A DNA stretch of 64,000 nt from contig NZ_CP063815.1 of assembly GCF_015277895.1 (NCBI RefSeq), positions 496,001-560,000 on the forward strand, given 5' to 3'. The notes below the pieces were generated by a model, which worked only from the letters and a program-made list of their open reading frames with translations, searched no databases and had not been told where the DNA came from. The stretch's first letter is position 1. The number at the start of each line of letters is the position of its first letter. Source of the stretch: Microbacterium abyssi (GTDB lineage Bacteria > Actinomycetota > Actinomycetes > Actinomycetales > Microbacteriaceae). This document shows, piece by piece, positions 4,061 through 52,617 of this stretch. Made by a program: the position numbers and the translations under genes.

Positions 4061-4232
4061 TTTCGACTCGCTGCGCTCGCTCAAGGCGTTTCGTCTGCGG
4101 CGGCTGGGCCGCCTCCGCTCAACGACCCGCGGGGCCGAAGCCTGTTCAGCAGCAGCGCCCCGCGGGTTGTTGAGCGAGTCGAAGGCGAGACGAAACGGGC
4201 TGAGCGACCGGAGGGAGCCGAAGCCTTCTCGG
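4061..4232. repeat. Microbacteriaceae intergenic palindromic repeat, likely bidirectional terminator
   Basis: Between two convergent genes lies a nested inverted repeat. The inner arms 4118-4135 and 4157-4174 match in 17 of 18 positions (core ACCCGCGGGGC) around a 21-base loop. Outside them are modules of the type TTCGACTCGCTGCGCTCGCT and GAGACGAAACGGG. The same modules recur at 25810-25890. Placement between converging genes fits a terminator; the conserved flanks fit a REP-like repeat family. Confidence 0.75.
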
Positions 4233-4240
4233 CAACGCGC

Positions 4241-6031: not shown

Positions 6032-6168
6032 GCTTCGAGGGTACTTGGCAGTGAACTCAGGCTCAGGGAACGTCTCTGAGGGCCGACGCTGCGGCGCCTC
6101 TGGCCGCAGGGGACGGGAGGCGCTCAGCCCCGCCCGGTAAACTCGGAGGCGACTTCCGAGGAGCCGCT

Positions 6169-7698
<1,530 letters not shown>

Positions 7699-32082: not shown

Positions 32083-32171
32083 GGAGACGTCGCATAGTCA
32101 GGCCTAGTGCACCACCCTGCTAAGGTGGAGTCCCCTCACGGGGACCGAGGGTTCAAATCCCTCCGTCTCCG
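32083..32171 (+). tRNA. tRNA-Ser (anticodon GCU), integration site
   Basis: The 89-nt sequence has acceptor arms GGAGACG and CGTCTCC, discriminator G, anticodon loop CTGCTAA (GCT, reads AGC/AGU) closed by CCACC/GGTGG, a long variable arm, and T-arm GAGGGTTCAAATCCCTC. CCA is not encoded. An integrase gene ends 22 bp downstream, the arrangement of an element integrated at the 3' end of a tRNA gene. A 14-bp near-copy of the T-arm (AGGGTTCAGATCCC, 13 of 14) lies at 32188-32201. Confidence 0.97.
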
Positions 32172-32192
32172 CAAAAAATCCCTGTTCAGGGT

Positions 32193-33344
32193 TCAGATCC
32201 CAAATCCTGGTGGATCGCTCGGGTCGCTCGGCGGGGCCGATTCTGGGCCCCAAGTGTACGTGGAGTGTACGCGATTTTGAGATTTGCTCTCCGCGGCCGC
32301 GAGCCGGTCCACGAAATCGCGGCGCTGCCCCTCGCCCAGTACGTGCGCGTATGTGGTGAGAACTGTCCTAGCCTCGTCGCCGAGATACTCTGCGACCTCG
32401 TTGATCGGCGTGCCCAGTCTCAGCCATGTTGAAGCGGCGAAGTGCCGAAGCGCGTGCCGGCGGAACCCGAGCGGAAACTTGCGTACCAGGTTGGCGGAGA
32501 ACTGTCCGCCGAGCTGGTTAGTGAAGACATAGCTGCTAGTTGATTTTCCGGCGGCGTGAGCGTGGAAGATCTCGATCGCTCGCGGGGATAACGGGATCGA
32601 TCGAGTGCCGCGCCAGGACTTTGGGGCCTTTTCCGCATACCCATCCGAGTGGGAACGTCCAACGTTGAGCTGTGTCAGCCCGTGCTCGCTGAGCCAGCTC
32701 ACGCGCGCGGCTCGTGCTTCACCCCACCGGATACCGGTGAGGGACATGAACTCGAAGACGTCGGCGATATCAGACCGTCGCTCGCGGAGCAGGGCCAGTG
32801 TGGACGCGACCTGCTGCGGCGTAGGGATCTCGCCGAGACTGAGCGTTCGCTGCGCGGCCGTGCCGAGCTCCGGGATCTTCTTCATCGTCCGGACAGGATG
32901 AGGCTGGCGAAGCAAATCATGTTCAGCGGCGTACGTGAACAGGGCGCTGAGCGTCGTCCGCGCTCGCGCGACTGTTGCCGGGGCCTTTCCTGATTGCAGC
33001 TCGGCAACCAGATGCTCACGGACGTCTTCCGACTGGATCGACGACACCGGTCGGACTAAGAGTCGCTTCGACAGCGCGGCGAGGTTGTGGTTGTCCGTGT
33101 CGATCGTGTGCGGATTGCCGCTCGCGCGTGCGCGCTGGAACATCGCCACCAGTTCGCCCAAGCTGATCGACTTCGTCGGCGGCAGCGGGCGACCGGTGGT
33201 AAGCAAGTGCTTCTGCTCTCGTTCCCATGCCTCGGCTTCGCTCTTTCGATGGAAGGTCTTGGTGACGACTTGGACATTTCCGACCTTGACCCGGGCGAGG
33301 TATCTCGTCTTGCCCGCACTCGTCTTTCGCGTTTCGACACTCAT
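32193..33344 (-). CDS. int: Tyrosine-type phage/ICE integrase
   Basis: A 383-residue site-specific recombinase. An N-terminal arm-binding domain (about 1-55) is followed by a SAM-like core-binding domain (about 60-150) and a catalytic domain. Catalytic residues are Arg206 (TGIRWGE), His297-x-x-Arg300 (RRHALRH) and Tyr332 (LTTYAHVLGE), so the enzyme looks intact. Its stop lies 22 bp from tRNA-Ser(GCU), its likely attachment gene. The start overlaps the excisionase-like gene (ATGA), so both are expressed together. Confidence 0.93.
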   Translation of the reverse strand: MSVETRKTSAGKTRYLARVKVGNVQVVTKTFHRKSEAEAWEREQKHLLTTGRPLPPTKSISLGELVAMFQRARASGNPHTIDTDNHNLAALSKRLLVRPVSSIQSEDVREHLVAELQSGKAPATVARARTTLSALFTYAAEHDLLRQPHPVRTMKKIPELGTAAQRTLSLGEIPTPQQVASTLALLRERRSDIADVFEFMSLTGIRWGEARAARVSWLSEHGLTQLNVGRSHSDGYAEKAPKSWRGTRSIPLSPRAIEIFHAHAAGKSTSSYVFTNQLGGQFSANLVRKFPLGFRRHALRHFAASTWLRLGTPINEVAEYLGDEARTVLTTYAHVLGEGQRRDFVDRLAAAESKSQNRVHSTYTWGPESAPPSDPSDPPGFGI

Positions 33345-35864: not shown

Positions 35865-36860
35865 TCAGCGCGAGATCGATGTCCCCGGCGTAGATGGGGT
35901 GACGACCGGCGCTGCGACATCAGGCGAGTCGTGACGGTCAGCGCGCTGCCTGAGCGCTGCGAGGCTCGATCGCAGGGAGGCCAGCTGGATGGGCACGACC
36001 TCGGATTCCGGCGGCACTGGAAGGTCGGGCACGACCTCCCGGATTGCGATCTCGTGGAGCTCGATGAGCGATTCGAGAGCAGCATCGGGAAGCGTGTGGA
36101 GCGATCGGGCGTAGTCGGTCATGTGGCGCAACTCGCTCAGCCATTGCGTCGCCTCGAGAGCGGTCATTTTCTCAGAACTCGCGGTGCGGAACGCGGCGGA
36201 AGCGTTTGGCATCGCGGATGCGTCTGCGCGGTCGGCGTCGAGTATCGTCTGTCCTCGACGACCGATCACCGTGAGGCGGTCAACGGCCGAGCCAGCTGCG
36301 GATGCTGCAACAAGCGCGTCGACATCGGCTATGTGCCGATCGTGCTCCGCCGGCGTGACGATATGAGATGCCTGGCGTCGCTGCATTCGTCGCAAGCCTC
36401 GCGAGCTGGTTGAGAGCAGGCTCTCGTCTCGACGCGTCGCAACGACGACGAAGTGCACCTGATAGCCGGAGTCGGTGAACCGCTGCGCAACGGCAAGTGC
36501 AGTCTCCGGTGAGCGAAAGGCGCCGTCGAGCAGCAGTGAGTATCGGCTGGTTCGCGCGTGGGCAATGCATGCCTGTAACCACAAGGCTGTGGCCTGCGAC
36601 AGATCCTGCTGACCGACGGCAGAAGTGCGGAAGCCCGGGTCGAGGTAGCGCGGATGGAACGCTTGAAGCTCCTCACTCGAGACAGGGACGAGCTCACCAC
36701 GGTGCGCGCGGCGTAACTGCGCGATTGCTCGTCCGGCGCCCGCCCCCGGAGCTCCCGCGAGCATGACAAGCGTTGGATGTGGGCTGGGCTGGATGCCGCC
36801 GAACACCGATCCCAGAACGAGCGACTCGCGGGCGGCCATCGGCTCTTGCGCGTCAGTCAT
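35865..36860 (-). CDS. Zeta-toxin-like protein with altered P-loop
   Basis: A 331-residue protein with the zeta-toxin/PezT fold plan. Zeta toxins phosphorylate UDP-N-acetyl sugars and poison wall synthesis. The segments after the P-loop match: an EELQAFHPRY region (about 64-73), LLLDGAFRSPETALAVAQRF (about 110-129, usual IDGTFR type), and GYQVHFVVVATRRDESL. The P-loop reads LAGAPGAGAGR: at residues 42-43 the usual Lys-Ser/Thr is Ala-Gly, so ATP binding may be lost or rebuilt with Arg44. Its start overlaps the upstream small gene by eight bases, as in toxin-antitoxin pairs. Confidence 0.78.
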   Translation of the reverse strand: MTDAQEPMAARESLVLGSVFGGIQPSPHPTLVMLAGAPGAGAGRAIAQLRRAHRGELVPVSSEELQAFHPRYLDPGFRTSAVGQQDLSQATALWLQACIAHARTSRYSLLLDGAFRSPETALAVAQRFTDSGYQVHFVVVATRRDESLLSTSSRGLRRMQRRQASHIVTPAEHDRHIADVDALVAASAAGSAVDRLTVIGRRGQTILDADRADASAMPNASAAFRTASSEKMTALEATQWLSELRHMTDYARSLHTLPDAALESLIELHEIAIREVVPDLPVPPESEVVPIQLASLRSSLAALRQRADRHDSPDVAAPVVTPSTPGTSISR

Positions 36861-37092
36861 GCGAAGGCCCTGCTTCCTCGCGCAACTCAGCTAGTTTCAT
36901 GGCGACTTCGCCGCGATCGAAACCGTCGACATCGTTCAGCTCGGAGCGAAGCTGTGCGATCCGGTCGGCGATCTGCTCATCCTGACCGTCATCGGACGCG
37001 AGCAGATCCGCGACGGCAAGACGCGCCTCGTCGCGTAGGGCGTCGTAGAGCGCCGCATCATTCGCTCGCCAGAGCGAGGGGCGCTGGGGCAT
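36853..37092 (-). CDS. Putative antitoxin of the zeta-like toxin
   Basis: A 79-residue acidic, helical protein (many Asp/Glu/Leu/Arg heptad-like positions from 12 to 75). It is the upstream, overlapping gene of the zeta-like toxin, which is the place of an epsilon-type antitoxin. ATG 37092 follows GAGACGAGGAG. A longer in-frame extension to 37371 is Arg/Cys-rich and unlike protein-coding sequence, so it is rejected. Identity is by context; no antitoxin signature is recognised. Confidence 0.65.
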   Translation of the reverse strand: MPQRPSLWRANDAALYDALRDEARLAVADLLASDDGQDEQIADRIAQLRSELNDVDGFDRGEVAMKLAELREEAGPSHD

Positions 37093-37487
37093 GTCGACTC
37101 CTCGTCTCGAGCTTACCAACGGTCCCGATGTCCGACGGACCTGCGGGAGCCAACGTGTCGCGTTGGCTCTCCACTGACTGGGGGCAATCGCTCTCGTTGA
37201 GTCGTTGTCACGGTTGTTTGAGCAGGTGTGCTCATCGTGCGAGCACGGTCTTCGATCGGTTTCCCTAATAGTGCCAGCGATGGCTCGTTCAGGAGTTGCG
37301 ATCCATGGGGCGAATGACGTAATCTGAAGGAGCTCCGCACCGCGGAGTGGGGTTCGACAAGTTCGAACCAAGGGTATCTAGTAGCGACGCGTGGCTACAA
37401 CCAGAGTCATTGGACCGTGAGCTCAACTCAAGTATTGCTCTGGCGCGCGACCCGTTTAGATATCGTTCGGTCCAACTAAATACTCAA
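37093..37487. other. Non-coding interval with three hairpins upstream of the toxin pair
   Basis: No convincing gene is seen in these 395 bases. They hold a 9-bp hairpin GAGCCAACG-TGTCG-CGTTGGCTC arms at 37147-37155 and 37161-37169, a CTCCGC/GCGGAG hairpin at about 37333-37347, and GGTTCGA/TTCGAACC arms at 37351-37369. The first lies 55 bases upstream of the antitoxin start and could be its operator. Confidence 0.5.
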
Positions 37488-37521
37488 AGTGTGCCCTAGG
37501 GACTTGCTCCTAGGGCACACT
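37488..37521 (-). terminator. Strong intrinsic terminator of the protease-STAND gene
   Basis: Perfect 13-bp arms AGTGTGCCCTAGG (37488-37500) and CCTAGGGCACACT (37509-37521) enclose an 8-base loop, 15 bases after the stop of the large minus-strand gene. Read on the minus strand it is followed by TTTGAGTATTT, a T-rich tract rare in this DNA. Confidence 0.85.
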
Positions 37522-37535
37522 CGTATTTTGGCTGG

Positions 37536-40500
37536 TCACTGCCGAGGTCGGCTCGCTCGCAGGATGCTGAGCGCGACAGAACGGCGGTTCTTGCTCAGAC
37601 CGCGAGAGTTTGTTGCCCGCAAGTAATTGCGCCGTGCGTTGCCGTTGGGCTGCGCGGCCAACCAGCGATAGATGCTCGGCCCAAATGCTTCGAGTTGACG
37701 ATGACTCACGTTGGACGAGCGCACGACGGCCAGGACGACGCGTGTGGACGTTCTGGCGGTCGGATTCTGTCCTAGCCAGGACTGGACCAAGGACAAGGCT
37801 GTTGCAACCCGATCTCCGCGGAGTCCAGCCCAATCGATGAGCTCCACATAGAGGTAAGCCGTCGTCCAGTGCTCATTCTGAGCCTGAAGCCAACGCTCGA
37901 CGTGATTCCAGAGGATTTCTTCGTGGACCCGGCTTGTCTCAACACGGAGCAGCGGTTGAAGAAGAAAAGTGGCATCTCGATGCTCACCGAACCGGTCTAG
38001 CCACCGTGAGACGCATGCCCAGAGCGTCGACAACTGCGCGTCATCAAGAATGTCCACCGAAGCGATTAGCCCGAGAAGGTGTCGCGAGTCGAGGCGAGCC
38101 GCGAGCGTTCCGAATCTCTCCGCAGCGAAAGGCCAGATGATCTTGAGCGCGATCGACGAGATTCGGGGGGAACTGAATGCTGCAAAAATCAGCTGTCTGA
38201 TCTTGGCGTCGTGCTGATGGGCACTCAGCCATTCTTGGATACGCTCCCAGAGTTCTGTGGTTTGTGAGTCGGTTAGGTGACGGTACTCGACAAGCGCTAT
38301 GAGCGAGTAGATGAGATGACGCTCACGAGTGAATCGCGTAAGCCAGGACGCGAGGTGCACCCAACCACTGTCGGGGATGCCCTCATCGGCGGCAGGGTTG
38401 CGTAAGACGGCTTGTAGGACGTATCCGCCGAATATGCCATTGTCCGTTGCCAGGAACTGCGAAGCCGCAGACCAGATCGCGCGTCGCATCGTCTCGGTTG
38501 TAGACCGATCGGCCAGTTCCTGAATCAGCTGGCCTGTTTCGTAGTCGGACGCAAGCTGCGGTGACTGTATGCAGTGCGTGAGCGCTGCCTCCGCGCGCCC
38601 AAGGGAGGCGGACGGGGTGGCGGGAAGCGCTGCGATCAACGTTCGCGCTAGACGGACGCTAGGTTGACCGTCGGGTGTCTGCTCGAGCCAAATGGTGGCA
38701 CGGCCAACTATCTCCTCAGCATGGTCCTCCAGGATTGTTGGAGACTGCAACATCTTGCGAAGAAGGTGAGCCGCCGCCCCCGAGGAGCTTGTAGGTCCGT
38801 CGAGCCAATCGATCGCACGATCCCAGATGGTGCTAGGCAGTGCCCTTCCCGTAGTGGTTACGTACTCGACCGAGGCTTGAAGTACATAAGGCACCGAATC
38901 AGCTACGGTTCCATGCTTAAGCCATTTGAAGATCAGGTCGAACAGACGAGTCGCCCGAGCTGCGTCAAGAGCCTCCCATCTGAGCGCTGCCTGGAAGAGA
39001 TGGCTGCCAGTGGAACCCGAGGCATGGAGAGGAAGCCATTTTTCGACGCACTCCCATAGGACTGCTGCAACACCTTCGCCGAGATAGCCCCATTTAAGGG
39101 CATCACTGAGCACGAGTCCGGCATCGAATCTATTTCCATGCTGCAGCAGCCACCTGCGGATGTGTGGCCAGATCCTTGGAGCGACGGGATCATCCTTTGG
39201 GCGGTCTCGCAGTGCCGCGCGTAGTACCCAACCCGAGTTCTCAGAATCCGTCGTTACAGCGAGCCAGGAGTCGACGAGATTCCAGATCCTCTCGGACCAC
39301 GTTCGATGCGCCTGCTCCCATGCAATGAGCGGTTTCAGTAGGAATGAGGTGGCCTTGCTCCCGAGGTTAGCGGCCACCCAGCTCTCGACCGAGACGATCA
39401 CAAACTCGTGGCGGTCTTGCTCAAGTCGCTTCGTCTTAAGCAGGCTCTCAAGTACGTATACGGCAGGAGGTTCCGTGCCGCGGGCTGACAACCAGTCAGC
39501 AACTAGCGGCCAGAGATCTGAGTCGAAGTCGCTGCTAGCGTTCTCGCTGCCGAGGAGCGACTCCAGTGCAAACGCTCCATCGATGTGGTGAGGGCGAGCC
39601 TGTATCCACGCGATGGTCAGACCCCAGGCATGGTCCCAGAGCTGCCGCGAGCGTTGCCGAAGCTCTGTCCGATCAACCACTGCGCTCAAGAGATGTATCG
39701 CGTGCTCGGTCTCCCCGAATGACTCTAGCCAACCTCGGATATAGTCACTGCACGTAGTCAGGTCCGAAGCTGAGAGCTCCGGGCGCCTGAGTAGGCGGCG
39801 CAAGGTGAAGTCGGCGGATACCTCGCCCCACCGCGGCTCTAGAGACTGAAGCGCTACGGACACTAGAGTCTCGCTGTCGACGGACGAGACGTCTTTCCGG
39901 GTGAGACACGCATTCATGACGAACTCGTCCACTGAACTACCCTGTTGGACGATCCATGCGACGGCTCGATCCGAGATGCTTGGAGAAACATCTTTCTCCA
40001 AGGATCTACACGCGACGAGCAAAGGCTCGGCTGCGAGCGGTGAATTCTCCACCGCTCCAAGCAACGAAGACCCAAGCGCGACCCAGCGACTCGTGAGGTC
40101 GTTCGACCAGAGCTCCGACTCCAGGATCTGCGCAGCAACTCGCGCGCTCCCAGCGGTATCCGCGCGAAGTGGCTCGGCGATTGCTTCGCTGGACTGCATA
40201 AGCCAGTGGGTCGCTCGAGATCGTAGCTCCACGATCGGCAGGTCCTGCGCGACGCGTTCGTCCAGGACGCGTTCGAGTGACGCAATCACGTTCGCGAACG
40301 GAGCGGGAGAGTTTAGGGCGGTTCTCAAGACCGTCGCGAGAGCCGACTCCCGAACGATCCCAGTGCTGTGGTGTAGCACGGCAGCTTCGAGGATCTTGTC
40401 CACGACAACGTCGTGTGCAGACGAGAGCTGGTGGTCCACGTCGATAAGCCAGCCAAGTTGACGTAGACGCTCGAGCGTGACTGCCACCAGTTCGCGGGAT

Positions 40501-41963
40501 GCTCCTTCAACTGCGCACAGAGCGGTCTCGAGTAGAGCATCGGCGCTGGCGGGTGCCGACGCGAGGCAGACAGCCGCGACGAGCATGTGTGAGGGCAGTT
40601 CTTCGCCTGCGCTCGCTTGAGTAGGAAGTATGTCGTCCTCGAGCAGGCGGTCATCGAGCCAGGAGGCGATGTCTTCGGACACGAGCGCCGCAGGGAGATC
40701 GCCAGTTGTGACTACTTGCGCTTCCACGACTTGGCCGAGAAGGACGGCAAGAATTGGCCGATGGCTGCCCGTCAGGTCGAGCACCGTAGCGGCTCCGAAC
40801 TTCGTCGTGGCCGACGGTGCAATCTCTCTAACGATCGCGAGGCAGACGTCTCTTGCGTCTTGCTCCGTGGGCGCCAGAAAGACCCTGCTGAAGCGGCTCA
40901 TCCCGGCGTCATGCCTGTGACGCAGTTCCCATCCGGTACGACTCGTTGCCAGCAGTCTGAGGCGCGGTGAGCTCGAAGCCGCGTTCGCGATCTCTGTCAA
41001 TGCGAGTAGGTCGAGCTCCCGCGCGAGATTGAGATAGTCGAGCAGTAGCAACACCGGCGCTGCTGCGGGGTCTCGCACGCGCTCGCTTATGGTGTCCGCG
41101 ACGCGGGCCGCGTTGCCGCCCCGGACGTGTATGACGTCCCACCCAGATTCTGCAGCAATATCTCCCACCTCGAGGAGCGTTCGCGTCTTGCCGACCCCTC
41201 CGTGCCCGACGAGCAGCACTGAGCCCGTGCCGCCCTCGCTCAGCGACGACCATAGCGAATCTGGGCTCCACGGGGTGCCCTGTGGCGGCCTAACAAACCG
41301 AAGGTCCTCTGATGTCAGCCGGGACCGATACCCGCGCAACGAGGCGATGACCTCGTCATGATAGAGAAGCGACGACGGTAGGGGGCCACGACGTGCAGGA
41401 ACTTCGATCTGCGCATGTACGCCTAATGCTTCGAGGGCGGTCGGAATTGCGATGGCATACAAGACATTCGCGAAGCCGGACGAACGTCCTCGCGCCGTTG
41501 CGGGTTGCTGTTCAACAAGGACGGCAACCGCCGAGTTGTCATCGTCGGCCGTGACGGCCGCGCCGGAGTATCCATGGAAGTCTTGGAGCGTTTGGTCCAC
41601 CCGGAGTTGAAGGGCTGGCACCGAACGCCCGTACGCGTTTCTACGACTCCGGCGTACGGACGTGATGGTTCCGGTCAGATCGGGCCGCGCATCGCCCGGG
41701 GTAGCTTCCAGATGCCAGAGCTCCGCGGGGGAAGGTCTCCTTACGGGCGATACATCGAAGTCGCCGTCGACGTGCAGGATCGCGACGTCCAGATCGGCAT
41801 CTCGTCGCGTGAAGATCACGGCGACGCGGGGTTCGTCGAGACCAAGTGAAACGCCGAGATCACCAGGCTGTGTATCGCCGACTACATGGCCTGCGGTGAG
41901 GAGGATGCGCGGAGCTACACAGATCGCCCGGCCGACCGGCCGTCCGCCGCGATAGACCTGCAC
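37536..41963 (-). CDS. Trypsin-like protease / STAND NTPase / Trp-repeat protein
   Basis: A 1475-residue three-part protein. (1) Residues 1-185 are a trypsin-like serine protease with a full triad: His26 (LLTAGH), Asp59 (LDVAIL), Ser133 (GYSGAA). (2) Residues about 195-540 are a STAND-type NTPase: Walker A GHGGVGKT (253-260), Walker B LLLLDY (305-310, Asp309), sensor-like LLATSR (337-342), and a winged-helix-like SSAHDVVVDKIL near 514-525. (3) Residues about 570-1450 hold about 22 repeats of about 38 residues with a pattern of aromatic/Trp, five residues, Trp-Leu, then a second helix. Such STAND proteins use the repeats as sensor and the N-terminal domain as effector in antiviral or conflict systems. 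GTG 41963 starts four bases after the Trypco1-like gene. Base composition is visibly less GC-rich than the chromosome. Confidence 0.88.
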   Translation of the reverse strand: MQVYRGGRPVGRAICVAPRILLTAGHVVGDTQPGDLGVSLGLDEPRVAVIFTRRDADLDVAILHVDGDFDVSPVRRPSPAELWHLEATPGDARPDLTGTITSVRRSRRNAYGRSVPALQLRVDQTLQDFHGYSGAAVTADDDNSAVAVLVEQQPATARGRSSGFANVLYAIAIPTALEALGVHAQIEVPARRGPLPSSLLYHDEVIASLRGYRSRLTSEDLRFVRPPQGTPWSPDSLWSSLSEGGTGSVLLVGHGGVGKTRTLLEVGDIAAESGWDVIHVRGGNAARVADTISERVRDPAAAPVLLLLDYLNLARELDLLALTEIANAASSSPRLRLLATSRTGWELRHRHDAGMSRFSRVFLAPTEQDARDVCLAIVREIAPSATTKFGAATVLDLTGSHRPILAVLLGQVVEAQVVTTGDLPAALVSEDIASWLDDRLLEDDILPTQASAGEELPSHMLVAAVCLASAPASADALLETALCAVEGASRELVAVTLERLRQLGWLIDVDHQLSSAHDVVVDKILEAAVLHHSTGIVRESALATVLRTALNSPAPFANVIASLERVLDERVAQDLPIVELRSRATHWLMQSSEAIAEPLRADTAGSARVAAQILESELWSNDLTSRWVALGSSLLGAVENSPLAAEPLLVACRSLEKDVSPSISDRAVAWIVQQGSSVDEFVMNACLTRKDVSSVDSETLVSVALQSLEPRWGEVSADFTLRRLLRRPELSASDLTTCSDYIRGWLESFGETEHAIHLLSAVVDRTELRQRSRQLWDHAWGLTIAWIQARPHHIDGAFALESLLGSENASSDFDSDLWPLVADWLSARGTEPPAVYVLESLLKTKRLEQDRHEFVIVSVESWVAANLGSKATSFLLKPLIAWEQAHRTWSERIWNLVDSWLAVTTDSENSGWVLRAALRDRPKDDPVAPRIWPHIRRWLLQHGNRFDAGLVLSDALKWGYLGEGVAAVLWECVEKWLPLHASGSTGSHLFQAALRWEALDAARATRLFDLIFKWLKHGTVADSVPYVLQASVEYVTTTGRALPSTIWDRAIDWLDGPTSSSGAAAHLLRKMLQSPTILEDHAEEIVGRATIWLEQTPDGQPSVRLARTLIAALPATPSASLGRAEAALTHCIQSPQLASDYETGQLIQELADRSTTETMRRAIWSAASQFLATDNGIFGGYVLQAVLRNPAADEGIPDSGWVHLASWLTRFTRERHLIYSLIALVEYRHLTDSQTTELWERIQEWLSAHQHDAKIRQLIFAAFSSPRISSIALKIIWPFAAERFGTLAARLDSRHLLGLIASVDILDDAQLSTLWACVSRWLDRFGEHRDATFLLQPLLRVETSRVHEEILWNHVERWLQAQNEHWTTAYLYVELIDWAGLRGDRVATALSLVQSWLGQNPTARTSTRVVLAVVRSSNVSHRQLEAFGPSIYRWLAAQPNGNARRNYLRATNSRGLSKNRRSVALSILRASRPRQ

Positions 41964-41967
41964 GTGG

Positions 41968-42303
41968 CTAGCTCGAGGGGAGCCGAGGGGAGAAAGTGAC
42001 GGATACTTCGAAGCTCGCTTCCGCGGCGATCGAGGAGATGATTACTGAACCCTCATAACCTAGCGATACTCCGAACGTTGCTTCGACCGACGCGAGATGC
42101 CATCCATCCGGGGTGGGAAGTTCGGGCAGGCTCTTCGCTAATGTGGCGACGCCAGCCTTAACTCCGCGTTGCACGTCGTCGATGCGCCCGGTAAGCCGCT
42201 CGATCGTGGAGTCCTCGGAGATGAGTCTTCCCTCCGCGTTGGTTGGGCGGACTTCGATGAGAACAGCTGTGTCCTCAGTGGCATTTTGGTTCTCTGCTCC
42301 CAT
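41968..42303 (-). CDS. Trypco1-like (trypsin-co-occurring domain) protein
   Basis: A 111-residue protein with an all-beta ending: WHLASVEATFGVSLGYEG, then VIISSIAAEASFEVSVTFSP. This matches the CU044_2847/Trypco1 family as I know it, a small domain found next to trypsin-like proteases in bacterial conflict systems. The N-terminal part (IEVRPTNAEGRLI) fits the same family. It ends four bases before the protease-STAND gene, on the same strand, so the two are one operon. ATG 42303. The role is unknown; a regulator or substrate of the protease is the main idea. Confidence 0.8.
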   Translation of the reverse strand: MGAENQNATEDTAVLIEVRPTNAEGRLISEDSTIERLTGRIDDVQRGVKAGVATLAKSLPELPTPDGWHLASVEATFGVSLGYEGSVIISSIAAEASFEVSVTFSPRLPSS

Positions 42304-42460
42304 TCGACTGACTCTAGCTCAAAGCCGAAATCACAGCCGCTCGCAAACGAACCGGTGAGCGGCGGCAACACTTCTGACTTGCAAGGGACACGAACAATGC
42401 ACGCAGGCACTTTCTGTGAATCATCTGGCGTGTTAGGCAAACTCGGCGTACTCTGATGGC

Positions 42461-45400
42461 GTGCGAGGAGGACTCGAGCGCTGGAAACGTGGCGTCGGCT
42501 CGCGAGGAGTCGGCCAGGCGATGGACTACGCCTTGCGTGGCTCATGCGATTCCCATCTCCGATCTGCGGGCGCGACGGCCCTCGACGCCTACAGCGGTGT
42601 CGGCGACGCCACTGTCACACGGTTCACTGCCGAGCCCGGAGCCATCGAGCGCGATGAGCTCAACGCCGAGCAGCTCGCTCAGTGGATCGACGGCTGCGAC
42701 CCAGCGTCGGGGGAGCGGCGCGGTCGTCAACTGGACTCCCCACACGCCGACCTGGTGCTAGACAGTACTGTCAATGCGCCGAAGTCGTTCAGCATTGCCG
42801 CGCTGATTCATCCGGAGCTCGCCGGCGAGTTCGAGGCGCTGCAGGATCGGCTTCGGGATCAGATCATTTCGACATGGCAGGTGGAGCTCAACGCGCGTCG
42901 GGGGGCCGGCGGGCGTGTCCGGGAGCAGCTCGCACGTATCGAAGTGGTGGAGCTGCAGCATCGCCGGTCGCGGGCGTTGGACCCACACATCCATCGTCAT
43001 CTTTGGCTGGGGGTGAAGGTCCGAGGCGTTGACGGGAAGTGGTCGAACGTCGACTCGCGGGTGGCGATGCGTGTGCAGAACCTCGTGAACGCGGAAGGGG
43101 ATCTCGCCGCGCGCACGGACCCGGCATGGGTGGCCGCGCTCGCTCGACACGGATACACGCTCGACGAGGATGGTGAGATCTCGCAGCTTGCGCATCTGGT
43201 GCGTCCGTTGTCGCGGCGGGCGAATCAGATCGAGGCGAACCGTGCCGTGGAGCTGGCGAAGTGGCGCGCCGCGCACCCGGGGGAGGAACCGAGTCACGAT
43301 GTGCTGCAAAGAATCGACCGGTACGCGTGGGCCACGGGCCGACCGGTGAAACCGCACGACCTTGACGAGGGCGAATGGTCCCGGATTGTCACTGACGAGC
43401 TCGTACGCCTCGACCCGCATGTGCTCGACCGTCGTGTCCCCGTGTTCGCGCCACACAAGAGTCCGGAGGCTGTCGACAGAGGGCTGCTCGCTCGACGTGC
43501 CGTGGCAGATGCGGACGAGCGCTCGAAATCGAGCAACGGCCGCTTCAGCCTCCTCGACATCCGGGCCGGCGCCACACGCGCAGTCGCAGCCTCAGGCGTG
43601 ACCGGTGACCGCGAGACTCTGCAGAGCCTCATTGATGACGTCGCATGGCGGGCGCTCGCGCACACCCGGGATCTGCTCCCCGATGCGTCAGGCAAGCCCG
43701 CTCACGTGAAGGCTTTCGTGACGAACCAGTTCGCGACGTTGAAGACCGAACTAGGCGAACGACTCTCGAGCCTCAGCATCGAAGGCGGGAGCGCGCCAGA
43801 CGATCCACGCCATAGGGGCCGCACCCATCCACTGCTGCAGGGGAGCGGACTGGACCCTACGCAGTCCGCCGCGGCGACGGCCGTCGCCAGCACCCGTCGA
43901 CTGGTCACGGTGACGGGACCGGCCGGCACCGGCAAGACGACTTTGCTGCGTGCGGCGCGCACCGTGCTGGAAGCAGAAGGCCGGCACATGCTGATCGTCG
44001 CCCCGACTCGGAAGGCGGCCGCGGTTGCCAGCCGCGAGGTCCGCACGGCCGGAACGAGCGTTCATGCGTTGCTCGCCGATCACGGATGGCGGTGGCGGAA
44101 AGACGATGCCGGGGCAGACGTCTGGTGGCGGCTGCACCCCGGTCAGCGCGACCCAGCGACCGGCGCGATCTTCCGAGGCCCACGACACCTGCCCCTGGAC
44201 CCCCACGTGCGCATCGTCGTGGACGAGGCCGGGATGCTCGATCTGCACGCCGCCAACGCGCTCACGACGCTCGCCCTCGAGACCGGTGCCGGCATCGCCC
44301 TTGTCGGAGATCCACATCAAGCGACCCCGGTCGGGCACGCCGGCGCGATGGCGCTGGCCGAGCGTCGCGCCGGCACGACGGTGGAACTCTCCGGCGTGCA
44401 CCGGTTCGAGGATCCCATGTACGCCGCATTGACGTTGTGCCTGCGGTCACCTCGGTCATCGGAGGATGCGGCGAACATCGCCGCCGAGCTGCAGCGGACA
44501 GGCCACGTTCGACGAGTCGATGATGCACTGGCCGCTCGCGACGCGCTCGTCGACGGATATTTGACGCGGCAGAGACACTCTCGAACGGTCGCGATTGTCA
44601 CCGCGACGAACGAGGAAGCAGCCGACGTCAACGAGGCGATCCAGGAACAACGACTCGCCCGTGGTGAGATCGGCCTCGACCGGATCGCGGTGGGAAGTGA
44701 CGAGCAGCGCATCCTCGAGGGGGACGTGGTCCAAACCCGCCGTAACGACCGCCTCGCCGGGATTGAGAACCGGGCCATTTGGATCGTCAGACGCATCGGT
44801 CCCGCTGCCCTTGAACTCCAGCGAGCGGACGACGCATCCGACATCCGCATGGTCACACGTGACTACGCCGCGGAACACGTTCACCTCGCCTATGCGACCA
44901 CGGTGCACGGCATCCAGGGCGAGACTACCGACGCCGCCCTTGTCGGGCCCGGCGTCGACGCATCCGGACTGTATGTGGGCCTGACTCGTGGGCGTCGCCA
45001 CAATGAAGCCATCGTGATCGCCTCAACGGACGCCGCAGCGCGGAAGATCGTCGCCGAGGAGATGCTGCGCGGCCTACCCGAACCGGATCTTGACGACGCC
45101 TCCCACGCTGCTCACCAGGACCTCGCCCGTGCGGCCCGCGACACCGACACCGACACGGACACCGCAGCAGACAACCACACGCACGCCCTGCGCGCGCCGA
45201 ACGGAGAGGCAGCGGGGGAGAGAAGCTATCGCCGGCTGATCGCGCAGGTGGCGGCCTGGATCCTCGCCGCGCGCACGGCCTTGCTCCAGGCAACTGTCGC
45301 GGCCGCCGCCAACGACGCGCTTCTTCACGCCCGGCCCGCGCGCGACGATATCCCTCGTCACATCGAGCTCCCGCCGCAATCGCGTGAGGAGCTGGAGGAG

Positions 45401-45544
45401 CGGCTGCACCAGTACGAGCGTCTCGCAGCGGATCTCGAGTACGGGCGTGCCGTGTCTCCGCTGGACCGCAGGCGTGACGAAAGAGGCGACCCACGACTCG
45501 CGCCCGCCGCCCCGTATGCGACATCGATCGAAAGAGGAATCTGA
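42461..45544 (+). CDS. MobF-family conjugative relaxase-helicase
   Basis: A 1027-residue relaxase that would nick oriT and unwind DNA for transfer. The N-terminal HUH domain holds His176, His178 and His180 in DPHIHRHLW. The C-terminal SF1 helicase has Walker A GPAGTGKTTLL near 487-497, Walker B VVDEAGM, HQATPVG, and a final LYVGLTRGRR motif. The start RGGLERWKRG differs from TrwC/TraI but resembles relaxases of actinobacterial elements; Tyr23 (MDYALRG) is the candidate nicking tyrosine. GTG 42461 has few alternatives. It is divergent from the Trypco1 operon and overlaps the next gene by one base. Confidence 0.9.
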   Translation: MRGGLERWKRGVGSRGVGQAMDYALRGSCDSHLRSAGATALDAYSGVGDATVTRFTAEPGAIERDELNAEQLAQWIDGCDPASGERRGRQLDSPHADLVLDSTVNAPKSFSIAALIHPELAGEFEALQDRLRDQIISTWQVELNARRGAGGRVREQLARIEVVELQHRRSRALDPHIHRHLWLGVKVRGVDGKWSNVDSRVAMRVQNLVNAEGDLAARTDPAWVAALARHGYTLDEDGEISQLAHLVRPLSRRANQIEANRAVELAKWRAAHPGEEPSHDVLQRIDRYAWATGRPVKPHDLDEGEWSRIVTDELVRLDPHVLDRRVPVFAPHKSPEAVDRGLLARRAVADADERSKSSNGRFSLLDIRAGATRAVAASGVTGDRETLQSLIDDVAWRALAHTRDLLPDASGKPAHVKAFVTNQFATLKTELGERLSSLSIEGGSAPDDPRHRGRTHPLLQGSGLDPTQSAAATAVASTRRLVTVTGPAGTGKTTLLRAARTVLEAEGRHMLIVAPTRKAAAVASREVRTAGTSVHALLADHGWRWRKDDAGADVWWRLHPGQRDPATGAIFRGPRHLPLDPHVRIVVDEAGMLDLHAANALTTLALETGAGIALVGDPHQATPVGHAGAMALAERRAGTTVELSGVHRFEDPMYAALTLCLRSPRSSEDAANIAAELQRTGHVRRVDDALAARDALVDGYLTRQRHSRTVAIVTATNEEAADVNEAIQEQRLARGEIGLDRIAVGSDEQRILEGDVVQTRRNDRLAGIENRAIWIVRRIGPAALELQRADDASDIRMVTRDYAAEHVHLAYATTVHGIQGETTDAALVGPGVDASGLYVGLTRGRRHNEAIVIASTDAAARKIVAEEMLRGLPEPDLDDASHAAHQDLARAARDTDTDTDTAADNHTHALRAPNGEAAGERSYRRLIAQVAAWILAARTALLQATVAAAANDALLHARPARDDIPRHIELPPQSREELEERLHQYERLAADLEYGRAVSPLDRRRDERGDPRLAPAAPYATSIERGI

Positions 45545-45810: not shown

Positions 45811-47088
45811 ATGGCCGCGAAAAGCGAAGAAGCGATCGCTCGGGCGAGAGCCCGGGCGAAGGCGTGGCGAGAAGCCAATCCCGAGCGGGTGGCGGCGTGG
45901 GGCAAGCAATATCGCGAAGCACACTCCGAGAAGATCGATGAGCAGAGACGGGCATGGCGGGACGGCAACCGTGAACAGATCGCGAGCCAACGGAAGGCTG
46001 CACGAGAAGCGAATCCCGAACGCGATCGTGAGACACAGCGTCGTGCCCGAGAGCGCCGACGCTCCCGCGAGCTCCGGCGTCTCGCGCACAACGCGCACAG
46101 CCGGCTCATGCGCGAGAGGGATCCGGAGGCGGCTCGCGAGCGCAGTCGGCGTTTCCGGGAGGAGCATCCGGACAAAGTTCGTGAGTATCAGCGTCGATAC
46201 CGTGAACGACACCCAGAGCGCGCACGACAGAACCAAGCAATGGCCGCGCAACGGCATCGCGACGCGAACGCCGAAGCGATCCGGGAACGCCAACGATCCG
46301 CAGCAGCCGAGCGTCGGCAACAGCGGCCCGACGCATATCGCCAGTGGTATGAGCGCAACCTCGAGGAACAGCGCGCCCGCGGCCGAGAAGCATCCCGACT
46401 GCGCAGCCGACTAAAGAAAGCAGGGCTCCCCCCACGCAACATCCATCGCGCCTACGCGGCCGACCGGCGGGCCAACGACGCCGCGGCTGACAGGTACTTT
46501 CGGCGAGAACGCTCCGTTGAGGAGCTTGCGGTGATCGCTACGGAGCTCGAGCAGCGAGGAAACCTGCGCCTTCCGCGGTCAGTCAGGGAACTGCGACGCG
46601 ATCTGATGGACGGTCCGCTCCCGGCCGCGTACTACCTGCAACAGTCGGTGGAGAATCGAGATCCTCGAGATGAGTCCGGCGACTTCACGTCGCAGCGGTA
46701 TCTGACGGCATTGAAGCGGATGCGGAACCGGGAACTTGAGGCACTGCGAGAACAACACGAGCAAGGTCTCCAGAACATCCACGCCCAGCGTCCGCAGATC
46801 TACGAGCACCTGCAGCTACGGCGGCGCGCAGCGCTCAGAGAAGAGATCCAGATGGACTCGATTGCCCGAGTGGCCAGAGGGCTCAAACCGTATGACATCG
46901 ACCACGAACTGCGAGTGCGACTGGACAAGGAGGTCACGCCCGTCGTCAATGCAAAACTCACCGAAGTGAAGGAGCATACGCTGCAACGGGTCGACGAGAT
47001 ACTTGCACGCTACGGGGAGGTTTCCGACCCGGCGGCGCCTTACCGGGCGCCGGGGGCGACACCAACGTCGGGGCCTGGCCTGCGGTGA
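45811..47088 (+). CDS. Highly basic tandem-repeat protein of the mobilization operon
   Basis: A 425-residue protein whose first 190 residues are a chain of Arg/Glu-rich helical repeats of 12-14 residues with a recurring [WY]-R-E-x-[NH]-P-E-[RK] core (for example WREANPERV, YREAHSEKI, FREEHPDKV, YRERHPERA). Similar short repeats occur around phage and HNH nucleases and probably touch DNA. The rest is charged helix with a LKPYDIDHELRVRLDKEV segment near 350. No enzyme motif is visible. It follows the relaxase and small acidic gene; an accessory DNA-processing or oriT-binding role is inferred. Its last codons contain the first copy of a 39-bp direct repeat. Confidence 0.75.
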   Translation: MAAKSEEAIARARARAKAWREANPERVAAWGKQYREAHSEKIDEQRRAWRDGNREQIASQRKAAREANPERDRETQRRARERRRSRELRRLAHNAHSRLMRERDPEAARERSRRFREEHPDKVREYQRRYRERHPERARQNQAMAAQRHRDANAEAIRERQRSAAAERRQQRPDAYRQWYERNLEEQRARGREASRLRSRLKKAGLPPRNIHRAYAADRRANDAAADRYFRRERSVEELAVIATELEQRGNLRLPRSVRELRRDLMDGPLPAAYYLQQSVENRDPRDESGDFTSQRYLTALKRMRNRELEALREQHEQGLQNIHAQRPQIYEHLQLRRRAALREEIQMDSIARVARGLKPYDIDHELRVRLDKEVTPVVNAKLTEVKEHTLQRVDEILARYGEVSDPAAPYRAPGATPTSGPGLR

Positions 47089-47106
47089 CGCCGATAGGTC
47101 TCGACG
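47068..47106 (+). repeat. 39-bp direct repeat, left copy
   Basis: Matches 48365-48403 in 34 of 39 positions (core TCGGGGCCTGGC, TGACGCCGA, AGGT). It spans the end of the basic repeat gene. The two copies bracket the AI-2E transporter gene. Confidence 0.75.
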
Positions 47107-47162
47107 CGTGGTGCAGAAGGCTGCATCTCCCGTATGTCCTGAGGGTCGTTAGTCTGAAGCGC

Positions 47163-48317
47163 ATGGGACTGTTCCGAAACGACCCACAGCGAGTACGACT
47201 CGAGTCGCAGGATGTTGAACTGAAAGCAACTCGGGCGCCGTGGAGCCTGTGGACCGACAGTTTCGGCAAGCTCGCCATTCGCGCGATCCAGATCATCGTC
47301 GTGGTCATCGTCGCGGTCGCGATCATCTTTGCGTTTCAGCAGCTCACGCTCGTTACGATTCCGCTCATGATCGCGCTGATCTTGGCGTGCGCATTCAATC
47401 CCGTGATGAGTTGGATGCGACAGCGCGGGGTGCCGTCGCTCCTGGCGACGGTGATCACACTTCTCGGGATCCTCGTGATCTTGGGGGCACTTGGTTGGCT
47501 GATCGTGTGGGCGGTTCGGGATCAGTGGGACGAGCTGTACTCCCAGGCGGAGGAAGGCTTCCAGCATCTACTCGCATGGCTGCAGACTTTGCCGTTCGAT
47601 TTCCTCCAGCCCGATCAGATCGATGAGTGGGTCGACACGCTGGTCGGATTCCTGACCAGCGCCCAGTTCGGCTCAGGTGCCATCGCCGGCGTGAGCGCCG
47701 TCGCCAGCTTCGTCACCGGCCTCGTGCTGATGGTGACTGTCCTGTTCTTCTTTCTGAAGGACGGACCGCAGATGTGGGAGTTCTTGCTGCGCCCGTTCCA
47801 GGGTCAAAGCTACGTGCGAGCCCGCCGCGTCGGGGACAAGACCGTGAGCACCCTCGGCTCTTACGTGCGCGGCACCGCGACCGTCGCGGCCGTGGACGCT
47901 GTCGGGATCCTCATCGGCCTGCTCATCCTGCAGGTACCCCTCGCCATCCCTCTCGCTGTTCTGGTCTTCCTCCTCGCGTTCATCCCCATCGTCGGTGCGA
48001 CAGTCGCCGGAATTCTCGCCGCGCTCGTAGCGCTGGTGGCCAATGGATGGGTGAACGCCCTCATCGTGGTCGGCATCGTGGTACTCGTCAACCAGCTGGA
48101 GGGCAACTTCCTGCAGCCCTTCCTGATGGGACGATCGATGCGGCTGCACGCGTTCGTCATCCTCGTCGCGCTGACAGTCGGAACAGTGCTCGGCGGAATC
48201 GTAGGGGCCGTTCTCGCCGTGCCGATCACCGCCGCCCTGTGGGGCGTGATCAAGGTCTGGGACGGACCGCAGCTCCCCGCACGCTGGGCTCGGCCGAAAC
48301 AACCTGCAAACAGCTGA
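47163..48317 (+). CDS. AI-2E-family transporter
   Basis: A 384-residue membrane protein with about eight hydrophobic segments. The AI-2E/PerM family pattern is clear: two N-terminal helices, a long soluble loop (about 110-165), and a C-terminal bundle with the GxxLGxxGxxLAVP-like run GTVLGGIVGAVLAVPITAAL near 345-364. Family members export small molecules or act as Na+/H+ antiporters; the name comes from autoinducer-2 export by TqsA. It sits alone between 39-bp direct repeats inside an otherwise mobile region, so it may be a separately acquired segment. Confidence 0.88.
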   Translation: MGLFRNDPQRVRLESQDVELKATRAPWSLWTDSFGKLAIRAIQIIVVVIVAVAIIFAFQQLTLVTIPLMIALILACAFNPVMSWMRQRGVPSLLATVITLLGILVILGALGWLIVWAVRDQWDELYSQAEEGFQHLLAWLQTLPFDFLQPDQIDEWVDTLVGFLTSAQFGSGAIAGVSAVASFVTGLVLMVTVLFFFLKDGPQMWEFLLRPFQGQSYVRARRVGDKTVSTLGSYVRGTATVAAVDAVGILIGLLILQVPLAIPLAVLVFLLAFIPIVGATVAGILAALVALVANGWVNALIVVGIVVLVNQLEGNFLQPFLMGRSMRLHAFVILVALTVGTVLGGIVGAVLAVPITAALWGVIKVWDGPQLPARWARPKQPANS

Positions 48318-50096: not shown

Positions 50097-52009
50097 GCGC
50101 GGCATGCGGCTGCGAGCACGAGCCGACGACCACGGCAGTCGATGAGAGCGAGGAGAAGGAGCGGCCCTGGTGGAGGGACCGCGGGATCATGGTGCCGGTC
50201 TTCTCCGGTGTCGCGTTCCTCGCTGGTCTGATCCTTGAGTGGTCCGGCATGGAGATCCCGGCACTGGTGCTGTTCTGGGTCGGCTTGCTGCTGGGCGCGT
50301 CGACGTTCACGCCGGGCGCGATCCGGAAGCTGTTCAAGGGCAAGCTGGGCATCGGGCTGCTGATGACGATCAGCGCGGTCGGCGCAGTCGTCCTCGGCTA
50401 CGTCGAAGAGGCTGCGGCGCTGGCGTTCCTCTACTCGATCGCAGAGGCGCTGGAGGACAAGGCGATGGACCGCGCCCGCGGCGGGCTGCGAGCGCTGCTG
50501 AAGCTGGTCCCCGACACCGCGACCGTGCGCCGCGACGGCGCTTCGGTGGAGATTGCGGCGAAGGACCTCGCGGTCGGGCAGGTCATGGTGGTTCGTCCCG
50601 GCGAGCGGATCGCGACCGACGGAGTCGTCCGTGCGGGGCGCTCCAGCCTGGACACCTCGGCGATCACGGGCGAGTCGATCCCGGTCGAGGTCGAGCCCGG
50701 CGACGCCGTGTCGGCCGGCGCGATCAACAGCGCCGGTGCGCTGGAGGTCGAGACGACGGCGGCGGGCACCGACAACTCGCTCACGACCATCGTGGAGCTG
50801 GTGGAGCAGGCGCAGGCGGAGAAGGGCGAGCGAGCGCGCCTCGCGGACCGGATCGCGCGCCCGCTGGTCCCGGGCGTGCTGGTCCTCGCGGCCCTGGTCG
50901 CCCTGGTCGGCTCGCTGTTCGGGGACCCGGAGCTGTGGATCACCCGAGCCCTCGTCGTCCTCGTCGCCGCCTCCCCGTGCGCGCTGGCGATCTCGGTGCC
51001 GCTGACGGTGGTCGCGGCGATCGGCGCGGCGAGCAAGTTCGGCGTGATCATCAAGTCCGGCGCGGTGTTCGAGCGCTTCGGCACGGTCCGCCACGTCGCC
51101 GTCGACAAGACCGGCACCCTCACCCGCAACGAGCCCGCCGTCACCGCGGTCCTCGCCGCGGACGGCGTGACCGACGCCCAGGCGCTGGCCTGGGCGGCCG
51201 CGCTGGAGCAGCACAGCACGCACCCGCTGGCCGCGGCGATCACCGCCGCAGCCCCCGGAGCCCAGGCTGCGGAGGGCGTGACCGAGCAGGCCGGGCACGG
51301 CATCGAGGGCAAGATCGACGGGACTCGGATCACCGTCGGCAGCCCCCGCTGGCTCGACGCCGGGGTGCTCGGCGACCAGGTCGCGGGCCTGGAGGAGCAG
51401 GGCATGACCGTTGTGATCGTGCACCGCGACGGGGCCCCTGTCGCCGCGATCGGCGTCCGCGACGAGCTGCGTCCCGAGGTCCCCGAAGTGGTGCGGACTC
51501 TCGCGGCGCAGGGCGTCGGGGTGACGATGCTCACCGGCGACAACGCCCGCACGGCACGGGCGCTGGCAGCGCAGGCCGGTATCAGCGACGTGCGCGCGGA
51601 ACTGCGTCCCGAAGACAAAGCGACCGCGATCGGGGAGCTGTCAAAGGCGGGGTCGGTTGCAATGATCGGCGACGGCATCAACGACGCCCCCGCTCTGGCC
51701 GCCGCGGACATCGGCATCGCGATGGGCGCGACCGGCTCGGACGCGGCGATCGAGTCCGCCGACGTCGCGTTCACCGGCCACGACCTCCGCCTCATCCCGC
51801 GCGCGTTCGACCACGCCCGCCGCGGACGCCGCATCATCAACCAGAACATCGTCCTGTCGCTGCTGATCATCACCGCGCTGCTGCCGCTCGCGCTGTTCGG
51901 CGTCCTCGGACTCGCCGCTGTGGTGCTGGTCCACGAGATCGCCGAGGTCGTCGTGATCCTCAACGGACTCCGCGCCGCCCGCACGCGTACCCCACGGCTG
52001 GAGAGCTGA
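50093..52009 (+). CDS. Heavy-metal P1B-type ATPase with SPC motif
   Basis: A 638-residue metal-exporting ATPase. TGES (192-195), phosphorylated Asp338 in DKTGTLT, TGDN near 499 and GDGINDAPALA near 523 are present. The membrane metal site is SPC (294-296), not CPC, and the last helices have HEIAEVVVILNGLR, as in the P1B-4 group of Co/Zn/Cd pumps. The N-terminus is short and has no full metal-binding domain, only Cys5 and Cys7. GTG 50093 overlaps the cmtR stop. The cmtR and cadD neighbours suggest cadmium; the SPC motif leaves cobalt open. Confidence 0.92.
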   Translation: MSAACGCEHEPTTTAVDESEEKERPWWRDRGIMVPVFSGVAFLAGLILEWSGMEIPALVLFWVGLLLGASTFTPGAIRKLFKGKLGIGLLMTISAVGAVVLGYVEEAAALAFLYSIAEALEDKAMDRARGGLRALLKLVPDTATVRRDGASVEIAAKDLAVGQVMVVRPGERIATDGVVRAGRSSLDTSAITGESIPVEVEPGDAVSAGAINSAGALEVETTAAGTDNSLTTIVELVEQAQAEKGERARLADRIARPLVPGVLVLAALVALVGSLFGDPELWITRALVVLVAASPCALAISVPLTVVAAIGAASKFGVIIKSGAVFERFGTVRHVAVDKTGTLTRNEPAVTAVLAADGVTDAQALAWAAALEQHSTHPLAAAITAAAPGAQAAEGVTEQAGHGIEGKIDGTRITVGSPRWLDAGVLGDQVAGLEEQGMTVVIVHRDGAPVAAIGVRDELRPEVPEVVRTLAAQGVGVTMLTGDNARTARALAAQAGISDVRAELRPEDKATAIGELSKAGSVAMIGDGINDAPALAAADIGIAMGATGSDAAIESADVAFTGHDLRLIPRAFDHARRGRRIINQNIVLSLLIITALLPLALFGVLGLAAVVLVHEIAEVVVILNGLRAARTRTPRLES

Positions 52010-52617
52010 TGCTTGCGACCATCGGCTCAGCGATCGGCTTGTTTGCTGCGACCAACATCGATGACATCGTCGTGCTGACCGTGCTGTTCCTGGCCTCCAG
52101 CCGAGGGAAGCCGCGACCGTGGCAGATCGTCGCAGGCCAGTACCTCGGGTTCATCACCCTCGTCGTGATCAGCGTGATCGCCGCGCTCGGCCTGACCATC
52201 GTCCCCGACGAATGGGTGGGCTTCCTCGGCCTGATCCCGCTCGGCATCGGCATCTGGACCCTCGTGCGGGGCCTGCGACGCAACGGTGACGACGATGACG
52301 ACGACGAGAAGATCACCGCGGTCGGGCTGTGGGGCGTCGCCGGGATCACGATCGCCAACGGGGCCGACAACATCTCCCTCTACACGCCGATCTTCCGCAC
52401 CAGTTCGCCCGGCGACGTCGTCGTCATGATCGCGGTGTTCCTCGTCCTCGTCGCCGTCTGGTGCGCTGCTGGACGCCTGATCGGAACCCACAAGGCCGTC
52501 ACCGAAACGCTTGAACGCGTCGAGCACTGGCTCGTACCCGTCGTGTTCATCGGCCTGGGCCTGTTCATCCTGATCGATTCCGGCGTCATCGTCCGCCTCG
52601 TCGAGGTCCTCGCATGA
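52009..52617 (+). CDS. cadD: CadD-family cadmium resistance transporter
   Basis: A 202-residue membrane protein with five or so hydrophobic segments. The CadD signature near the start (GLFAATNIDDIVVLTVLF, about 10-27) and the NGADNISLYTPIF segment near 118-130 are clear. A run of Asp residues (about 93-99) splits the two halves. It starts on the last base of the ATPase stop (TGATG) and overlaps lspA (ATGA), so the operon is tightly packed. Confidence 0.9.
   Translation: MLATIGSAIGLFAATNIDDIVVLTVLFLASSRGKPRPWQIVAGQYLGFITLVVISVIAALGLTIVPDEWVGFLGLIPLGIGIWTLVRGLRRNGDDDDDDEKITAVGLWGVAGITIANGADNISLYTPIFRTSSPGDVVVMIAVFLVLVAVWCAAGRLIGTHKAVTETLERVEHWLVPVVFIGLGLFILIDSGVIVRLVEVLA

Follow-up and report, generated by a model that had tools for sequence, protein, structure and literature searches.

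A Trypco1 gene paired with a protease, STAND NTPase and solenoid gene in Microbacterium abyssi: a candidate NLR-like conflict receptor

What a small Trypco1 family protein and the very large protein encoded immediately after it might do together is the question raised by a gene pair of Microbacterium abyssi, located in a 64,000-nucleotide stretch of contig NZ_CP063815.1 (positions 496,001 to 560,000 of assembly GCF_015277895.1; hereafter the window, to whose first letter feature coordinates refer). The large protein combines an HtrA-fold serine protease, a STAND-type NTPase and a long repeat solenoid, and we lean, with modest confidence, towards its being an NLR-like intracellular conflict receptor that is cargo of an integrative element and acts by the mechanism proposed below. 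Such a receptor would probably be antiphage and work like AVAST type 1, with Trypco1 in place of the Avs1 pro-nuclease. The case is computational, and is built on the domains, their intact motifs, effector exchange among relatives, the linkage and correlated divergence of Trypco1, and an integrase-bearing context. The pair and the parts of its second product are as follows:

41968..42303, minus strand: Trypco1 gene, 111 amino acids, first of the pair (PF19493 and NF041216)
37536..41963, minus strand: protease-STAND-repeat gene, 1475 amino acids, GTG start, second of the pair
41394..41963, minus strand: HtrA-fold serine protease domain, residues 1-190, triad H26/D59/S133
40284..41255, minus strand: STAND-type NTPase and following helical region, residues 237-560
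37710..39740, minus strand: C-terminal alpha-solenoid of 38-residue Trp-Leu repeats, residues 742-1418

The Trypco1 gene lies 4 bases upstream of the large gene on the same strand, and its product scores 41.4 bits against PF19493 (curated Pfam cut-off 24.6) and 28.5 bits against NF041216 (cut-off 23); besides scoring above the Pfam cut-off, it has the trypsin-like peptidase neighbour that characterizes the family. Three relatives of the large protein (P0002, P0003 and P0005) begin at the same alignment column as it does. A scan of positions 37300-42700 for sigma-70-like promoters found none (1.0 in shuffles), and guanine-cytosine content dips to 59% across 37-40 kb.

A first-pass annotation, made from the letters and their open reading frames (ORFs), had described this two-gene Trypco1 / trypsin-STAND-repeat module, an observation that is confirmed here. 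Its domain calls needed further support, because the whole large protein alone scores slightly below the cut-off for Trypsin_2 and reaches 22 bits for nSTAND_NTPase5, where the cut-off is 34. For the protease, the His-Asp-Ser triad is retained in all eight family members that reach it, the present protein counted, and occurs together with the double beta-barrel fold of trypsin-like/HtrA-fold proteases. An AlphaFold2 (AF2) model was obtained for residues 1-1190; the VIA structure matches listed for it cover residues 1-184 only and include DegS-peptide complexes, while the Foldseek matches listed are mainly solenoids plus two Deg proteases. PADLOC, run on the gene pair and two neighbouring zeta ORFs, matched the protease part alone, to Avs1b (E 7e-4, residues 10-143) and LmuA (E 1.4e-3). 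An ordinary HtrA/Deg protease was considered and rejected, as the protein has no leader ahead of the first protease strand and is extended by a conserved P-loop NTPase and by repeats. No CARD-like domain precedes the peptidase, which begins at residue 1 in both the alignment and the model.

The NTPase region carries residues that are invariant in all ten alignment members, namely K259, D309, R342, R402-P403 and H517-D518, which we take to be the Walker A lysine, Walker B aspartate, sensor arginine, GxP-like motif and WHD-histidine motif, respectively. Under these names, the full series of STAND motifs is present after the P-loop core, and five of the ten members match nSTAND_NTPase5 at E<=0.01.

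Beyond the NTPase, tryptophans recur with a period of 38 in residues 561-1475 (16 pairs, against a maximum of 7 in 500 shuffles at any lag of 30-45). A repeat profile scores 16 units of the protein as positive, a circular result, as the units of the query and its relatives trained the profile. A second profile of 19 units, from the related protein P0010 and a plasmid protein, gives 27.8 bits for the query and 95.3 bits for the relative P0017, with shuffles at or below 9.6 (347 of 500 scored); its units were located via the first profile, so that it is not wholly independent. The region is helical in the AF2 model up to residue 1188. The Trp-Leu repeat has no Pfam entry, no Pfam repeat family being matched at E <= 0.1, and a TPR or WD40 sensor was rejected on the same result; Pumilio-like RNA binding was likewise rejected, the PUF profile matches being weak (E 0.005-0.03) and scattered over several registers. 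HEAT-like karyopherins rank first in Foldseek (E 4e-6, template modelling score 0.2-0.3, root-mean-square deviation over 20). Because the PUF matches are weak and Foldseek favours karyopherins of this kind, the claim is limited to that of an alpha-solenoid. Domain matches, invariant motifs and the AF2 model bear out the effector-NTPase-sensor layout and the intact motifs of the first-pass annotation.

Eight close relatives of the large protein were found (P0002-P0009, of which P0008 is from Microbacterium laevaniformans), and for P0002, P0003 and P0005 Trypco1 proteins were found on contigs of identical size (39054, 5818 and 7543), taken to be the same contigs. Further proteins show that the layout is modular, with effectors swapped on one NTPase-repeat scaffold. 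In P0017 this NTPase and these repeats follow a different N-terminus that contains a GRDGGIDA...IIIECKDN stretch; this is presumably a PD-(D/E)XK-type nuclease, an assignment confirmed by no match to Pfam, PADLOC or PDB sequences. P0010, from Saccharothrix syringae, likewise has the NTPase and repeats, with a short N-terminal motif where the protease would be, and we presume this motif to resemble actinobacterial amyloid signalling motifs; when P0010 was used as query in 296 genomes of the class, the source genome alone was found. Conversely, a related protease is joined to NB-ARC and TPR in P0018, and in P0019 and P0020 to an nSTAND5-like NTPase sitting ~230 residues later.

This exchange bears on whether the system belongs to conflict at all. 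STAND NTPases include regulators, and the large protein could instead be a regulatory protein of MalT/AfsR-like signalling that acts through its protease during stress or development. We regard this as highly improbable, as no DNA-binding domain was found with Pfam, P0017 carries a nuclease-like domain in the effector position, and the protein is rare in its own family and lies in a mobile context.

The sensor-like repeats also occur in MoxR-linked proteins. Five plasmid records matched in the repeat region only, and in three Streptomyces plasmid loci drawn from them the same repeats (54-89 bits) are found in proteins annotated as SAV_2336-related or WD40, each encoded right behind an annotated AAA family or MoxR family ATPase. 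By analogy with the architecture in PMC7159879, these proteins occupy what would be the vWA position of ternary systems. As a separate observation, the C-terminal region beyond the repeats in two of the Streptomyces plasmid loci (L072 and L073) reads by eye like a nucleotide cyclase.

The link between Trypco1 and proteases was followed across the phylum. PF19493 occurs in 5 of 398 genomes sampled from the bacterium's own family and in 19 of 396 phylum genomes (18 above the cut-off), the two samples overlapping. Thirty-one Trypco1 loci outside the window were examined with ~7 kb on each side, a locus on a 3-kb contig (G737) being omitted. The trypsin profile was seeded with 13 of these loci and five P proteins, and Trypsin_2 was seen in at least 11 of the 13 seed loci among the Pfam matches listed (the others being L053 and L059); the MoxR profile came from a single seed, L060. 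In 24 of the 31 loci, 11 of them independent of the seeds, Trypco1 is followed directly downstream, on its own strand, by a trypsin gene. MoxR is next in 12 of these 24, one encodes a protease-CHAT protein (L037), and 11 encode the protease and a P-loop region in one polypeptide without MoxR (L038, L040, L041, L048, L050, L053, L058, L059, L062, L063 and L065); VMAP itself was confirmed in L042 only. Among the 11 fusions, six have a Pfam NTPase above cut-off (five nSTAND1, one AAA_16), L062 has one under cut-off, and L038, L059, L063 and L065 have a P-loop motif alone (for L059, among the matches listed). Among the domains at their C-terminal ends are WD40, TPR and, in L038, HD-RelA/SpoT-TGS; Trp-Leu repeats were found in none of the survey proteins at E <= 0.01. 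The two-gene form is therefore recurrent, and the present locus is a new combination within it. The first-pass annotation had also remarked on the missing vWA/MoxR partner: vWA, MoxR and VMAP are indeed lacking from the 15 neighbouring ORFs scanned, which sets the locus apart from VMAP ternary systems, but because the two-gene form recurs this is not special to the present locus.

Three survey loci merit a mention of their own. L038 (G266, reverse strand 3076-6984) encodes Trypco1 and then a 1302-residue protein in which a protease, a P-loop motif and HD-RelA/SpoT-TGS are combined, possibly a Trypco1-paired alarmone enzyme under protease control. L062 (G500, reverse strand 2743-6981) and L037 (7272-9194) encode Trypco1 followed by trypsin-CHAT (caspase-like) fusions, the former with a P-loop and TPRs; the two CHAT matches score 57.5 and 24.1 bits (cut-off 24), giving two proteases in one polypeptide.

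Trypco1 and protease also diverge together. For 28 pairs the correlation of their pairwise distances is r 0.87, where the highest of 2000 permutations gives 0.22, and for the 24 survey pairs it is r 0.83 (best permutation 0.36), values uncorrected for shared ancestry. Together with the family match and the 4-base spacing, this upholds the proposal of Trypco1 as a linked partner. In a protease tree whose deep forks are weak and which has four rows on long branches, the present family forms a single clade (98/96) with P0011 and P0018-P0020 next to it, separate from both the MoxR-linked proteases and the P-loop-linked ones of the survey, and the MoxR-linked and P-loop-linked labels need 3 and 4 changes, respectively.

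As regards the role of the partner, allosteric control is common among HtrA-fold enzymes, which makes an activating partner plausible. The likeliest role for Trypco1 is that of an adaptor or an allosteric regulator coupling oligomerisation to proteolysis, because it has no recognised enzyme motif and follows trypsin effectors across unrelated architectures. Two other roles were weighed. Trypco1 might be the inhibitor of the protease, antitoxin-like, with infection relieving the inhibition; its upstream position and frequent pairing are as in toxin-antitoxin pairs, and it accompanies the protease regardless of the NTPase. The STAND NTPase itself already provides an off-state, however, and a solved-structure search gave four weak matches (E 0.36-1.3), none an inhibitor, so that we judge this role quite unlikely. 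It is unlikely, if a little less so, that the protease has in Trypco1 its first substrate or pro-effector, which becomes the killing agent upon cleavage: the Trypco1 gene takes the position of the protease-activated pro-nuclease in Avs1 and HamMAB systems (PMC12799240), and the frequent pairing and correlated divergence would fit. Against it, the protein has ~110 residues, its conserved positions are mostly hydrophobic or glycine, and no catalytic motif is seen in it by eye. The AF2 model of Trypco1 (one helix and a beta-hairpin, pLDDT, the predicted local distance difference test score, 55.7) was too poor to be used as evidence.

In the mechanism we propose, the long Trp-Leu solenoid would sense a component of the invader, and sensing would release the STAND NTPase, which, as in its family, is expected to oligomerise with ATP. 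Oligomerisation would gather the HtrA-fold protease domains into an active state, by analogy with HamMAB and Avs1b as described in PMC12799240, with the product of the gene just upstream, Trypco1, serving as the dedicated protease partner. Cleavage of a cellular or invader protein would then halt the growth of the infected cell or kill it.

The surroundings of the pair hold the following features:

32083-32172: tRNA-Ser(GCT), abutting the integrase gene
32193..33344, minus strand: tyrosine integrase (PF00589, 27.7 bits, cut-off 27.1), inferred left end of the element
35865..36860, minus strand: Zeta toxin gene (PF06414, E 5.6e-25)
36853..37371, minus strand: candidate antitoxin ORF of 172 amino acids, upstream of and overlapping the zeta toxin gene, no family match
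37488..37521, no strand assigned: hairpin with a 14-bp stem, possible terminator, separating the large gene from the toxin genes
42461..45544, plus strand: MobF/TraA-type relaxase, divergent from the pair (TIGR02768 E 2.3e-35 and NF041492 E 2e-23, both under curated cut-offs)

A 59-bp copy of half of the tRNA-Ser lies at genome position 612.6 kb (612.59-612.65 kb), 84.5 kb rightward, and the region is probably an integrative element of ~84.5 kb at tRNA-Ser, with its left 32 kb inside the window and the pair near its inferred left end. The right copy is also called a tRNA-Ser by ARAGORN, although its anticodon, at position 28, comes unusually early, and a second tRNA gene there is therefore possible. 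A ParA gene is also found near the pair. The placement on a mobilizable element beside a toxin pair is thus consistent with the integrase and relaxase nearby and the zeta toxin next door. It might accordingly be asked whether the system serves the element, by monitoring competing elements or element loss, possibly with the zeta toxin (e.g., by cutting its antitoxin). The pair does lie between the relaxase and the zeta genes, shares the strand of the latter and is separated from them by 164 bases, but the hairpin, a putative terminator, stands between them, and we hold this alternative to be very unlikely. The hairpin is terminator-like on the plus strand only, and the region has 3 such sites versus 3.3 in shuffles. 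Further genes on the plus strand (47085-48317 and 50239-53138) encode an AI-2E family transporter, signal peptidase II and a 792-residue ORF with a C-terminal Cad transporter domain, possibly metal-handling cargo.

Several points weigh against a conflict receptor as described. The PADLOC match is weak and confined to the protease. The STAND assignment is drawn from a sub-cut-off Pfam score and motifs, and the NTPase is the weakest folded part of the AF2 model (block pLDDT 43-81 over residues 231-460). No Trypco1 partner was found for the other five of the eight relatives (17 candidates scored), and no trypsin was detected in seven of the 31 survey loci (L036, L039, L045, L049, L051, L052 and L066; L036 has CHAT only, the L039 contig stops ~2 kb downstream and the L066 match is under cut-off). 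The distance correlation, uncorrected for shared ancestry, falls to r 0.51 when trypsin distances exceed 0.5 (262 of 276 distance pairs). Finally, the protease-STAND-repeat family is very rare, being found in one of 398 genomes of the bacterial family, its source (at most two candidates per genome scored among the matches listed), no match to it was found in phages, and pattern scans of IMG/VR and genome contigs gave none. The reading as a conflict receptor is strengthened by the effector exchange in P0017 and P0010, the repeats in MoxR-linked proteins and the 11 two-gene loci among 24. Of the first-pass interpretation, layout, motifs, partner and context hold, while antiphage activity, ligand sensing by the repeats, oligomerisation and the role of Trypco1 are predictions.

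A wider proposal is that Trypco1 and protease-STAND fusions form a broad, separate actinobacterial class of protease-armed NLR-like immune systems, in which the Trp-Leu solenoid would be a sensor that moves between systems, being common to these fusions, to STANDs armed with nucleases and to ternary MoxR-vWA systems, and in which Trypco1, in the Avs1 pro-nuclease position, would be an obligate activator or first substrate; this we put forward tentatively, as a possibility that may well prove too broad. What Trypco1 does to a protease can be asked far more simply in the two-gene systems than in MoxR ternary systems, and the effector swap on one scaffold permits receptors with related sensors, armed with either a protease or a nuclease-like domain, to be compared in matched tests.

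Protease fusions in Avs and trypsin as an exchangeable STAND effector have already been published (PMC8195603, PMC7159879 and PMC12799240). Trypco1 was named in 2020 for its position beside trypsin-VMAP genes (PMC7159879), is termed an adapter in PMC10907252, and also appears in print beside diversity-generating retroelement loci; the portions of PMC7159879 and PMC10907252 at hand show no function for it. Its pairing with protease-STAND proteins met no description in the literature searched (many subscription papers and supplements lay outside the search), and the Trp-Leu repeat met none in the literature on Trypco1/STAND systems, no search having been aimed at the repeat.

Among known systems, the locus shares with AVAST the effector-STAND-sensor layout, the sensor role being predicted. 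Its likeness to AVAST type 1 (Avs1a pro-nuclease and Avs1b, PMC12799240) lies in the protease part matched by the PADLOC Avs1b model; the remainder of that 1924-position model, over NTPase and sensor, is unmatched, the present sensor is a different solenoid, and the gene directly upstream is Trypco1 rather than an MBL-fold pro-nuclease. The likeness to Avs proposed in the first-pass annotation thus stands for the tripartite layout, whereas the PADLOC models place the locus in none of the known Avs types. The order of an upstream gene and an N-terminal protease fusion is described in Avs, Hachiman, Lamassu and DRT, toxicity from forced protease dimerisation was shown for HamMAB, and infection-dependent partner cleavage was shown for Avs1b (PMC12799240). 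With VMAP (MoxR-vWA) ternary systems (Kaur et al. 2020, PMC7159879) it shares Trypco1 beside a trypsin-like peptidase and, through the proteins beside AAA/MoxR genes, the Trp-Leu repeats; it differs in holding switch, sensor and protease in one polypeptide, with no VMAP, MoxR or vWA among the scanned neighbours. Exchangeable N-terminal effectors link it to the STAND systems of Kaur et al. 2021 (PMC8195603), where trypsin is named among the domains replacing bDLD3 before central NACHT, MNS or nSTAND1 NTPases and REase among the exchangeable effectors of another STAND conflict system; the present locus has a Trypco1 partner, an nSTAND5-like NTPase and Trp-Leu repeats, with no EAD/Death-like adaptor recognised. 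The CARD-NLR system LypABC (PMC13236601), in which the LypA peptidase serine is required for lysis, likewise joins a trypsin-like peptidase and an ATPase in one protein, but no CARD, second NLR-like protein or peptidase-nuclease LypC was seen here. A further likeness is to the survey pairs of Trypco1 with trypsin-nSTAND1-beta-propeller proteins (L040, L041, L048, L050 and L053), which have two genes in the same order and a protease-NTPase-sensor protein of 1433-1475 residues; these carry nSTAND1 and a beta-propeller where the present protein has an nSTAND5-like NTPase and a solenoid, and their proteases belong to another clade.
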